Translations under genes and position numbers: made by a program
The notes under the pieces: generated by a model
Databases searched by the model: none
Seen by the model: the letters and a program-made list of their open reading frames with translations, nothing else
What the model was told of the DNA's origin: nothing
Part shown: positions 696 through 51,788 of the stretch, piece by piece
Layout of the letters: each line of letters begins with the position of its first letter
How positions within the stretch are numbered: the first letter of the stretch is position 1
Source of the DNA: a virus
Reading direction: 5' to 3' (one strand)
DNA length: 61,822 nucleotides
Virus record (IMG/VR): IMGVR_UViG_3300046373_000181
Coordinates: 1-61,822 of that record

Positions 696-944
696 ATGAA
701 CTATCAACTATTCTGCCATATCCTGAACGACAGTCTGATTTTCGAGCCAACACCACTGGTCACCCCGGACGTATGGGAGGAGTGGCAACAGGAATTCTAC
801 ACCGATTTTAAGGAGCATAGTGTTAGTCGCGACGCATCACTATCCGATAAGGAGAAAGTCACCCAGTGGGTGCGGGACGCCTTTTCGGAATACAGTTTTG
901 ATACCCATAATTTTCAGCTAAAGCCAGAATTTATACAGCCATGA
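696..944 (+). CDS. hypothetical protein, 82 aa
   Basis: An acidic protein of 82 residues with no recognised domain. It begins 8 bp after the previous stop and its stop overlaps the ATG of the methyltransferase by 4 bases (ATGA), so it is probably co-translated with it. Confidence 0.6.
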   Translation: MNYQLFCHILNDSLIFEPTPLVTPDVWEEWQQEFYTDFKEHSVSRDASLSDKEKVTQWVRDAFSEYSFDTHNFQLKPEFIQP

Positions 945-1699
945 AAGTAATGGATCTATTTGCAGGAATCGGCGGCTTTTCCGTGGCCGCTCACGCAATG
1001 GGATGGGAAACCGTCGTGATGGTTGAATGGGACAAAAAACGCCGACTATGGCTACAAAAAATCTATCCTCAGACCTTTATACATGGAGATATTGACACCT
1101 TCGATAATAGCCCCTACCGCAACTCAATTGACCTTATTTGCGGTGGTGAGCCCTGTCAGGGAAATAGTATTGCCGGAAACCGTAAAGGAGTATCCGACCC
1201 CCGTTTCAAGTGGCCGGCTTATTTACGGCAGGTTGATGAGGTCGCCCCGCTTTGGGTCGTTAACGAAAATGTTACCGGTTCAATTTCTAACGGAATACTG
1301 GACCGAAAGATCAGTGATCTGGAAGCAATCGGTTACGCCTGCTGGCCGCCCCTTGTTATCCCTGCACGTGCAGCCGGATGCCATCACGAACGGGAGCGGG
1401 TATATCTCGTTGCCTACTCCCTGCGCACAGGACGGCGGCAACTCAACACTTCCGCCCTCCCAGCTGAGCAAACGAAAGGGAATGTATGGAACGGTGCCCA
1501 GCGCCCTGCTCCACTTGGGCCAGTTACCCGGTACGCCAATTCATCCGAGATTTTACGAGCGGCTGATGGGCTTTCCAGTGGGATACCTGCCTCTGACAGA
1601 AACAAGGCCATTGAGTCCTACGGAAATGCCGTAGTACCCCAGATTCCCTACAAGATTTTTCAAGCTATCCAGCACACCGAAAACACCACCACACCATGA
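941..1699 (+). CDS. DNA (cytosine-5) methyltransferase 1
   Basis: Transfers a methyl group from S-adenosylmethionine to C5 of cytosine in DNA. The C5-methylase motifs are in order: motif I DLFAGIGGF (residues 5-13), motif IV with the catalytic Cys in EPCQ (C72), motif VI ENV (109-111), motif VIII RERV (about 151-154) and motif X GNAVVP (228-233). The target-recognition stretch between VIII and X is short. At 252 residues it is compact, like other phage orphan methylases. No nuclease partner is visible, so protection from host restriction or gene regulation are the likely roles. An unusual +1 frame runs through the gene (see 1023-1634). Confidence 0.93.
   Translation: MKVMDLFAGIGGFSVAAHAMGWETVVMVEWDKKRRLWLQKIYPQTFIHGDIDTFDNSPYRNSIDLICGGEPCQGNSIAGNRKGVSDPRFKWPAYLRQVDEVAPLWVVNENVTGSISNGILDRKISDLEAIGYACWPPLVIPARAAGCHHERERVYLVAYSLRTGRRQLNTSALPAEQTKGNVWNGAQRPAPLGPVTRYANSSEILRAADGLSSGIPASDRNKAIESYGNAVVPQIPYKIFQAIQHTENTTTP
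1023..1634 (+). CDS. overlapping +1-frame ORF inside methyltransferase 1
   Basis: A 203-codon open frame lies entirely inside the methylase gene, one base ahead of its frame. Its last third carries ordered words such as LPTPCAQDGG and ERLMGFPVG, which I recall from a family of phage proteins often annotated as methylases or hypothetical. The methylase frame of the same bases reads LVAYSLRTGRR and AADGLSSGI, also normal for C5 methylases. The +1 stop (TAG 1632-1634) falls inside the codons of motif X. It could be a frameshifted C-terminus, a separate overprinted protein, or an untranslated relic. Expression is not shown. Confidence 0.4.
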   Translation: MNGTKNADYGYKKSILRPLYMEILTPSIIAPTATQLTLFAVVSPVREIVLPETVKEYPTPVSSGRLIYGRLMRSPRFGSLTKMLPVQFLTEYWTERSVIWKQSVTPAGRPLLSLHVQPDAITNGSGYISLPTPCAQDGGNSTLPPSQLSKRKGMYGTVPSALLHLGQLPGTPIHPRFYERLMGFPVGYLPLTETRPLSPTEMP

Positions 1700-2862: not shown

Positions 2863-3609
2863 ATGAGCGAATTAACGATGGGTTCTCTCTTCGCCGGAAC
2901 GGGGGGATTCGAGTTGGCAGCCGAACGAAACGGCATCAAACCCCTTTGGAATTGTGAGATAGACGAACTGAAGCGACAGAAATTAAAAAAGAACTTTCCT
3001 GATGTACAACAATACGCCGACATCCGAGATTTGCACTACCCCCAACATGTTGATATCCTCACCGGGGGATTCCCCTGTCAGGACATTAGTTCAGCCGCCG
3101 GTCACCGAGCCACAGGAATTAACGGCCAAAGGTCGGGGCTATGGAAGCACTACGCCCGTTTACTGGGGGAAGTTAGACCTTCAGTCATCGTCTTTGAAAA
3201 CAGCCCAAGAATCGTTGTTTCCGGACTCGAGCAAGTCTTATGCGATCTTGCCCGACACGGGTATGATGCTGAATGGCGCCCTTTTTATGCTGCCCAATTC
3301 GGATACAATCACTATCGAAAACGAACATACGGCGTTGCCTTCGCCCGGAGCTCAGGATGGGAGAGTTGTCTTAAAAAAGGTGGAATCCTTGAAAAAGTAT
3401 TATCAGGCAAAAATCTCCCACCAAAATCACCTCCTGAAGCAGTGCCAACTAAACGGTATGACCGCCATTCAGACTATGAATCTGTACGAATGGATGATGG
3501 GTTTTCCAAAGAACTGGACAAGTTTAGAATCCACGATTGTGGAAACGCTGTAGTTGTCGACATTCCACAAGCCATCTTTTATCAACTCAAACTTCACTGG
3601 CCAATCTAG
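2863..3609 (+). CDS. DNA (cytosine-5) methyltransferase 2
   Basis: A 248-residue C5 cytosine methylase, a distant paralogue of the one at 941. Motif I reads GSLFAGTGGF (7-16), the catalytic Cys is C72 in GGFPCQ, motif VI is ENS (112-114) instead of ENV, motif VIII is YRKRTYGVA (about 151-159), and motif X is GNAVV followed by VDI where PQI is usual (from 227). The ENS and VDI departures are worth noting but do not remove the catalytic Cys or Glu. Like its paralogue it carries a long +1 overlapping frame. Confidence 0.9.
   Translation: MSELTMGSLFAGTGGFELAAERNGIKPLWNCEIDELKRQKLKKNFPDVQQYADIRDLHYPQHVDILTGGFPCQDISSAAGHRATGINGQRSGLWKHYARLLGEVRPSVIVFENSPRIVVSGLEQVLCDLARHGYDAEWRPFYAAQFGYNHYRKRTYGVAFARSSGWESCLKKGGILEKVLSGKNLPPKSPPEAVPTKRYDRHSDYESVRMDDGFSKELDKFRIHDCGNAVVVDIPQAIFYQLKLHWPI
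3002..3553 (+). CDS. overlapping +1-frame ORF inside methyltransferase 2
   Basis: A 183-codon frame, one base ahead of the methylase frame, the same relation as at 1023-1634. It contains, in order, SSLKTAQESLF, PDTGMMLNGALF, ALPSPGAQDG and EWMMGFPKNWTSLE. I recall this order of words (S.W.TSQ.SL, P.SGMM.NG, LPTP.A.D, EW.MGFP..WT) from many phage entries. The +1 stop (TAG 3551-3553) falls in the same motif X codons as in the paralogue. Whether it is translated is unknown. Confidence 0.4.
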   Translation: MYNNTPTSEICTTPNMLISSPGDSPVRTLVQPPVTEPQELTAKGRGYGSTTPVYWGKLDLQSSSLKTAQESLFPDSSKSYAILPDTGMMLNGALFMLPNSDTITIENEHTALPSPGAQDGRVVLKKVESLKKYYQAKISHQNHLLKQCQLNGMTAIQTMNLYEWMMGFPKNWTSLESTIVETL

Positions 3610-50321: not shown

Positions 50322-51788
50322 CTAAAAAAAAGGTTTGCTTTTGGTTTCGTTTCGATTCCTGACCAGAGTATCCAGCTCTTTATCAACCAAATGCCCCGTC
50401 ACCTTGACGTAGTTGCGCTCGGTAACCCCGATGGTTGAATGCCCTAACGCATTGCTTACCGCCTTGATGCTATAATCTTGCAGAAAGATAACACCCGCTG
50501 TTTTTCGTCCGATTTTGGGCGTTAAGCGTTTTTCAAACCCGATCAGCTCCGCAATCTTCTCCAGATGGTTAATCATGGTGGTGTCAGAAATAGCCGGTGG
50601 GGCCTCCCCTATCACCTCATCCCATAAATCAACAAGTTGACTCGTAATGGGGATGTTACACTCGGAGTTATTTTTCTCGCGGCGGATAATGATCTTCGGA
50701 TTCCCGCCGGGCGTTCGGGCCTCGTAGGTCTCTTTGGCACTGGCGTAGCGGATCGCGTCGGGTAGATCCATGCCCGTTAGGCAAATGAGGCGAAACCACC
50801 AATGCGTTACTTTATAGCGGCCGGGCACTTCAAGCGTAAAGAGTCTCTCAATATGAATAGGTTCTAAAAAGTACACGTCTTTGGCCGGATTGCCCGGCAG
50901 GCCCAGATCGCCAATCGCGCCTACCGGGTTCCGCTCGATAAGGTGCTGCTTGCGCAGCCAGGTCAACAGCTCACAAACCACCGAGCAGTATATCGTCGCC
51001 GTACCGGGACTCATCCGCTCGTTTCGATGCTTGCAGCGGGGATTGCCAGAGGGCTGACAAAGCAGCCACTCGTGGTATTTCTCCACCCAGTAGGGCGTTA
51101 GGCTCATCACCGGTATGTGCATAGAGAGCGGGTATCTAGCCAGCCAGTCCGAGGCTGCCTTACGTTTATTATACGTCGCCAGCTTCATCTGACCCGTGGC
51201 TTTCTTGCCTAGTGTCAGCTCGATTAGATACGCGGCCATCGCTTGCCGGATCGGCGTGTCGGGTCCCAGGCTCGCGTGGGCCAAGCCGTTCTGTGCCAAC
51301 AAGGGCGATGACTTGCCCGGCCGGACCTGCTTGGCTTTGCGAGATAAAAACTTCGGCGGATACACGAACTGATCCCCCTGCACGGCGGGGGCATTACCGG
51401 TCAAGTATTCGAACTTGACCGAATCGGTCGTGGGCCGGGGCGCGCGCTGGGCATCGTAACGCATTTGCTGTTTGGACTGAATATCTTTTAGATCAATTTG
51501 AATGCGTAGGATGCGTTCGTTAAGATCTAACGTCGGCGCATCCCGTCCCCTAAGCCGGTATTTTTTCTGATCCCAGGCCCGAAGATCGATAAGCAATATA
51601 TTTCCAAAACTTACCTCACCCGTGCCCTGATGAATGAACCGTTCACGGGCGACAAAGCCAGCATCCCGAACCGAATTTACGGTGAGCCTGACTAGTAAAT
51701 AACGCTCATGCGCAGAGGCACTGGCGCGGGGTGGAGGAAGCTTTGTTTTAAACTGAATAGTGGCAGGCATTCGTAGACGTATCAACAT
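50322..51788 (-). CDS. int: tyrosine integrase (Bacteroidota type)
   Basis: 488 residues, site-specific recombinase for integration. The catalytic part has TGMDLPDAIRYA where others have TGLR (the first Arg is not in its usual place), the Lys region RREKNNSECNIPI, then KIGRKTAGVIF in place of HxLRH, the second His in LGHSTIGVT and Tyr in RNYVKV. GRKT and loss of the first Arg are common in Bacteroidota integrases, but Lys in place of the first His is less usual. The start could be an internal Met at 51770. Confidence 0.85.
   Translation of the reverse strand: MLIRLRMPATIQFKTKLPPPRASASAHERYLLVRLTVNSVRDAGFVARERFIHQGTGEVSFGNILLIDLRAWDQKKYRLRGRDAPTLDLNERILRIQIDLKDIQSKQQMRYDAQRAPRPTTDSVKFEYLTGNAPAVQGDQFVYPPKFLSRKAKQVRPGKSSPLLAQNGLAHASLGPDTPIRQAMAAYLIELTLGKKATGQMKLATYNKRKAASDWLARYPLSMHIPVMSLTPYWVEKYHEWLLCQPSGNPRCKHRNERMSPGTATIYCSVVCELLTWLRKQHLIERNPVGAIGDLGLPGNPAKDVYFLEPIHIERLFTLEVPGRYKVTHWWFRLICLTGMDLPDAIRYASAKETYEARTPGGNPKIIIRREKNNSECNIPITSQLVDLWDEVIGEAPPAISDTTMINHLEKIAELIGFEKRLTPKIGRKTAGVIFLQDYSIKAVSNALGHSTIGVTERNYVKVTGHLVDKELDTLVRNRNETKSKPFF

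Follow-up and report, generated by a model that had tools for sequence, protein, structure and literature searches.

Two cytosine-5 methylase genes of a phage, each very probably encoding the two subunits of one methyltransferase in overlapping frames

Each of the two cytosine-5 (C5) methylase genes in the DNA from an IMG/VR virus record (the window, the whole stretch of 61,822 nucleotides that was analyzed) very probably gives rise to two proteins in overlapping reading frames, which together would form one C5 DNA methyltransferase of the M.EcoHK31I kind. The frame 0 methylase is named A and the +1 frame protein is named B. Frame 0 encodes A with motifs I–VIII and X and without motif IX, and the +1 frame encodes B, a separate selected protein bearing motif IX. 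B would be initiated internally and would bring the target-recognition region between motifs VIII and IX. It would then bind A to give the full enzyme, in the manner described for M.EcoHK31I with its two polypeptides, and the A-B heterodimer would methylate the phage DNA. The phage probably uses this methylation of its own DNA against host restriction. Such self-protection fits because no nuclease gene was identified beside either methylase among the neighbours, which were surveyed in part.

Subunit A of methylase 1 is encoded on the plus strand, as are all methylase features described below, at positions 941–1699 and consists of 252 amino acids. It contains motifs I–VIII and X and no motif IX. 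The Pfam profile DNA_methylase (PF00145) matches residues 1–183 only (1.1e-36; 127.3 bits against a curated cut-off of 22), the alignment of HhaI spans residues 2–159 only, and phrog_363 is matched with 1.7e-58. Motif I (DLFAGIGGF, 953–979) lies outside the overlap with B and shows no synonymous constraint. Motif IV, PCQ with the catalytic cysteine (1151–1159), is overlapped by B. The bases of motif VIII (RERVYLVAY, 1391–1417) and those immediately following read GYISLPTPCAQDGG in the +1 frame.

This +1 frame is open from 1023 to 1634 for 203–204 codons, and its stop codon TAG (1632–1634) lies within motif X of A (GNAV, 1622–1633), as the initial annotation had described. Both words quoted there from this frame, LPTPCAQDGG and ERLMGFPVG, are present in the +1 translation of methylase 1. 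The statement that the methylase frame carries all C5 motifs was wrong: motif IX is absent from frame 0 and sits in the +1 frame. We infer that B begins at 1083, so that the nested gene spans 1083–1634 and encodes 183 amino acids from ATG 1083, the frame being open back to TTG 1023. The form starting at 1023 matches phrog_1008 with 1.6e-11. Among the aligned B proteins LPTPCAQDGG (1410–1439), the putative start of the target-recognition region, is conserved. B has its motif IX, IHPRFYERLMGFPVGY, at 1539–1586, and around it the excess synonymous codon identity amounts to 0.44.

Methylase 2, the other C5 methylase in the window, bears the same nested +1 gene, which the initial annotation had overlooked. 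Its subunit A (2863–3609, 248 amino acids) matches PF00145 with 2.2e-34 and phrog_363 with 8.1e-53. Subunit B (3002–3553, 183 amino acids, starting with ATG) is nested in the +1 frame and matches phrog_1008 with 6e-10. The 183 codons of this frame contain ALPSPGAQDGR and EWMMGFPKNW, and alignment places motif IX of B, NLYEWMMGFPKNWT, at 3479–3520. That the two frames would encode complementary parts of one enzyme had likewise been overlooked.

The amino acid motifs of A force part of B. Therefore, the proper control consists of synonymous-codon shuffles which keep the A protein and the codon usage. For each of the window genes 2,000 such shuffles were compared using a B profile of 72 other sequences, the window being left out. 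B of methylase 1 scored 102.1 bits against a null mean of 26.6 and a maximum of 61.2, and its open length was 204 codons against a null maximum of 150; both values were reached in 0 of 2,000 shuffles. The +2 frame of the same gene scored −1.8 bits against the B profile. B of methylase 2 scored 77.0 bits against a null maximum of 69.1 (reached in 0/2,000), and its open length was reached in 4 of 2,000 shuffles. Among 138 non-seed genes, 137 scored above all 30 of their synonymous shuffles. The longest +1 open frame across the 138 genes measured 234 codons against 99 in the shuffles, and the stops of the +2 frame matched the null (20.75 vs 20.85). The sole exception was L010:4380-5504, a C5 methylase of another family, which showed no +1 signal and 27 stops. 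This gene is the second C5 methylase on its contig and represents a natural negative control.

Synonymous codon identity above expectation was measured in 71 diverged genes less than 60% identical. The excess was about 0.01 for A residues 1–47, 0.06–0.09 for residues 48–110, 0.17–0.22 for residues 111–160 and 0.42 at motif IX of B, and it was 0.02 from motif X onward. A like pattern (0.10, 0.22–0.26, 0.44 and 0.02) was obtained for 30 genes that came from the search with A only, in which the codon at A142 was identical in 406 of 406 pairs compared with 27% expected. Wobble conservation was confined to the B region, GC3-poor genes included.

Codon-position substitution, which the initial annotation had suggested as a check, was determined for 46 independent close pairs. 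In A, synonymous change was halved inside B and normal on both flanks, with third-position differences of 0.365 before B, 0.217 inside and 0.413 after. First-position differences, which are B's own wobble, rose from 0.114 before B to 0.233 inside. The identity of the +1 frame was 0.721 inside B, where it equals that of A, compared with 0.593 and 0.528 outside. Upstream of the variable region A is more conserved than B (0.822 vs 0.673); between motifs VIII and IX B is the more conserved (0.507 vs 0.433), and so is its frame at motif IX (0.813 vs 0.688 for frame 0).

Could the resemblance in the +1 frame be a by-product of methylase motifs and codon bias, and B a spurious open reading frame? The synonymous shuffles still average 27–37 bits, so the likeness of B is partly forced by A. 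However, all real genes save one beat their shuffles, wobble conservation does not extend beyond B, and the C5 methylase of the other family gives no +1 signal. This explanation is extremely improbable and was refuted by the synonymous shuffles, the codon-identity test and the close-pair test. The +1 frame protein B is a real, selected protein, beyond chance. The initial observation that one stretch of DNA inside the methylase gene at 941–1699 codes in two frames was borne out. Its reading of the +1 frame as an overprinted gene is supported: independent +1 homologues were found in viral contigs and bacterial genomes, they lie inside C5 methylase genes, and constraint on synonymous sites of A is limited to the part under B, a pattern which the methylase frame alone does not explain.

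C5 methylase profiles in general match A only up to residue ~160–190. In the region of A before motif X motif IX is absent, and A alone gives no HhaI match of this kind. When the B sequence LPTP...MGFPVGY was put between motifs VIII and X of A, a second HhaI match (HhaI 273–311) was obtained, in order with motif X. In this A-B join IHPRFYERLMGFPVGY aligns on KLHPRECARVMGYPDSY (HhaI 273–290), followed by GNAV on GNSV, and the HhaI score is lifted from 57.2 to 66.8 bits. The match of motifs IX-X to HhaI is weak alone (8.6 bits, second domain), and the assignment rests on order, place and natural fusions. A Pfam search of the IX-X tails gave no match, and a sequence-only search of the PDB with B or the IX-X tail gave no methylase match.

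The natural relatives show both the separation and the fusion of these parts. In five split relatives (L010, L014, L239, L258 and L307) A ends right after motif VIII, and the frame of B contains the recognition modules, motif IX and motif X. In three single-chain relatives (L212, L237 and L238) one frame contains motifs I–VIII, (W)PTP modules, a MGFPxGWT-like motif IX and motif X; the recognition modules thus sit in the frame of B in both kinds. As far as these alignments tell, the motif IX missing from A is supplied by B. The target-recognition region between motifs VIII and IX would also be carried by B, because B carries it in the split and single-chain relatives. The three single-chain relatives also retain an open +1 frame with a match to the N-terminus of B, either a remnant or a short protein.

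The constraint on B begins near motif IV and covers some 100 codons ahead of motif VIII; the first half of B is overprinted on motifs IV–VIII of A. For the first 100 residues no relative of known function was found. An AlphaFold2 model of B alone was of low confidence (pLDDT 64, pTM 0.26), and Foldseek comparison of this model with the PDB gave nothing at E ≤ 0.001. The AlphaFold2 model of the single-chain relative L212, run without alignment, had a pLDDT of 31. Residues 79–95 of B (numbered for 1083–1631) form a confidently predicted hairpin, LTWK..LLFQL in relatives, with a pLDDT of ~90 at its core.

A real and selected B might have another role, as a regulator, as a partner of another protein or as an anti-restriction factor. 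The first 100 residues with their predicted hairpin would suit such a role, but the second half of B shares the methylase frame in the single-chain relatives and the frame of motif X in the split ones, and A itself lacks motif IX. Such a role is unlikely, and a methylase subunit remains the preferred reading of B.

The start of B was examined in the relatives. An ATG is found near the conserved QLTLF start region in 228 of 264 B open reading frames. A Shine-Dalgarno sequence of at least 5 bases precedes this ATG in 35% of the cases compared with 17% in shuffles, and in 57% in the genome set. In several Lachnospiraceae among the Firmicutes relatives B begins with the arrangement AAGGAGG-CTTTTT-ATG, in which the Shine-Dalgarno sequence is perfect. 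The B start of the window has no Shine-Dalgarno sequence, which is uninformative if the host belongs to the Bacteroidota. Because of the start ATG and the Shine-Dalgarno sites in relatives we infer internal initiation: B would be translated from its own start, and a ribosomal frameshift would not be needed.

Alternatively, a programmed +1 ribosomal frameshift near motif VIII would fuse A to B and thereby provide an alternative C-terminus, as the initial annotation had considered. A and B are indeed +1-related, motif VIII is where A ends in the split relatives, and fused single chains exist. However, a frameshift at motif VIII would leave untranslated the ~100 constrained B codons upstream, and the frameshift product of the nested genes would be devoid of motif X, which A retains as its own. 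Since the constraint on B reaches well upstream of motif VIII and B is equipped with a start of its own, preceded by Shine-Dalgarno sites in relatives, this very unlikely mechanism was rejected in favor of two separately initiated proteins, and the proposed alternative C-terminus is unsupported.

The occurrence of B was analyzed in 316 phage and bacterial loci, which were not de-duplicated and in which a few open reading frames are cut by contig ends. B was present in +1 in 308 of 309 A-core open reading frames, likewise not de-duplicated. These 309 comprise 288 nested genes, 16 without motif X in A, 3 clear single chains, 1 ambiguous case (L269) and 1 without B. Viral contigs and one genome per bacterial species were also scanned for B with the motif IX pattern. 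Among the matches listed, 158 of the 161 B open reading frames from viral contigs (the first set) and 82 of the 84 from bacterial genomes (the genome set) lay in +1 of an A open reading frame; the remaining ones belonged to split genes, fused genes or a gene with additional fragments. Whether the +1 family always lies inside C5 methylase genes had been raised in the initial annotation; it does so among the matches listed from viral contigs and bacterial genomes, where the motif IX pattern found no free-standing B outside methylase genes. The nearest relative of the window B among the matches listed is from Hymenobacter psychrotolerans. Further relatives occur in Paenibacillus, Lactobacillus, Mycobacterium and Sulfitobacter phages and as gene 58 of E. 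coli phage N15. The nested design appears widespread among phages and is usually left out of annotations, as judged from these comparisons of sequences.

PHROG 1008 is the B family (8e-74 for Leyra B, besides the 1.6e-11 and 6e-10 of the window B proteins). It is annotated as DNA methyltransferase, and the annotation is silent on its being the +1 frame of another methylase. PHROG 1008, 26627, 27243 and 31772 match B or its C-terminus and carry the label DNA methyltransferase or unknown function. In many cases gene callers pick just one of the two frames.

The initial annotation had also suggested that one family originated from another by frame change. This holds in part. The second half of B corresponds to the part of an ordinary C5 methylase that comprises the recognition region and motif IX. 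A frame change in its past is likely because single-chain relatives have it in the same frame as A. The first half of B has no known parent. We tentatively consider it possible that reciprocal overprinting gave rise to a large class of C5 methylases in phages and bacteria. In this scenario the recognition region of the ancestor, together with its motif IX, would have been displaced to +1 and kept as B. New sequence overprinted in A would have bridged to motif X, and the first half of B would have been overprinted on motifs IV–VIII. The specificity of B would evolve constrained by A, and nested, split and fused forms would interconvert.

M.EaeI is, like M.EcoHK31I, a two-polypeptide C5 methylase, and both have the specificity YGGCCR. 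In 1995 Lee, Kam and Shaw reportedly found the small EcoHK31I gene inside the large one in another frame, and the B gene of the window is likewise nested in the A gene in another frame. The nested two-polypeptide kind has thus been known since the 1990s from one bacterial enzyme. In M.EcoHK31I the large polypeptide contains motifs I–VIII and X, and motif IX is found only in the small one (PMC3404938), the same layout as in the window subunits. However, the predicted recognition domain of M.EcoHK31I was placed in the large subunit and not in the small one (PMC3404938), whereas here the region would lie in B, and the window system belongs to a phage and occurs twice in one genome. M.AquI is a C5 methylase split into I–VIII and IX-X (PMC3404938). 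It also consists of two polypeptides, and its layout is shared by the five split relatives, but it differs from that of the window, where A keeps motif X (GNAV) and B is wholly nested.

B has already been recorded as a second gene inside A in phage Lily, where gp63 is listed as "g62 internal gene", and in Paenibacillus larvae phages, which have doubled methylase genes. In these records the function is given only as "methyltransferase" and no generality is stated. In ShiLan, too, an out-of-frame gene is hidden in a phage methylase; it is a mobile HNH endonuclease insertion (PMC11855218) and not a methylase subunit. No report on the prevalence of the nested design was found in the open-licence literature. 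Three aspects appear to be new against this literature: how widely the design occurs, the assignment of the recognition region to B, and the series of nested, split and fused forms. For a whole phage methylase family, one of the two subunits is apparently missing from annotation or entered as a second, separate methylase or as a hypothetical protein, and A cloned by itself would yield an enzyme that is inactive or whose properties are misjudged. Hundreds of such two-frame genes occur naturally, and with their split and fused relatives they provide material on the origin of overlapping genes, and the same family is useful for the evolution of DNA specificity under double constraint.

Two other genes of the window were noted. 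The gene at 1888–2697, between the two methylases, weakly resembles SspD, a protein of phosphorothioate-type DNA modification (PADLOC, 1.7e-6), and its product is probably a PAPS-reductase-like ATPase. The gene at 50322–51788 gave a weak Pfam match, below the cut-off, to tyrosine integrases. Because of this probable tyrosine integrase the phage may be temperate.
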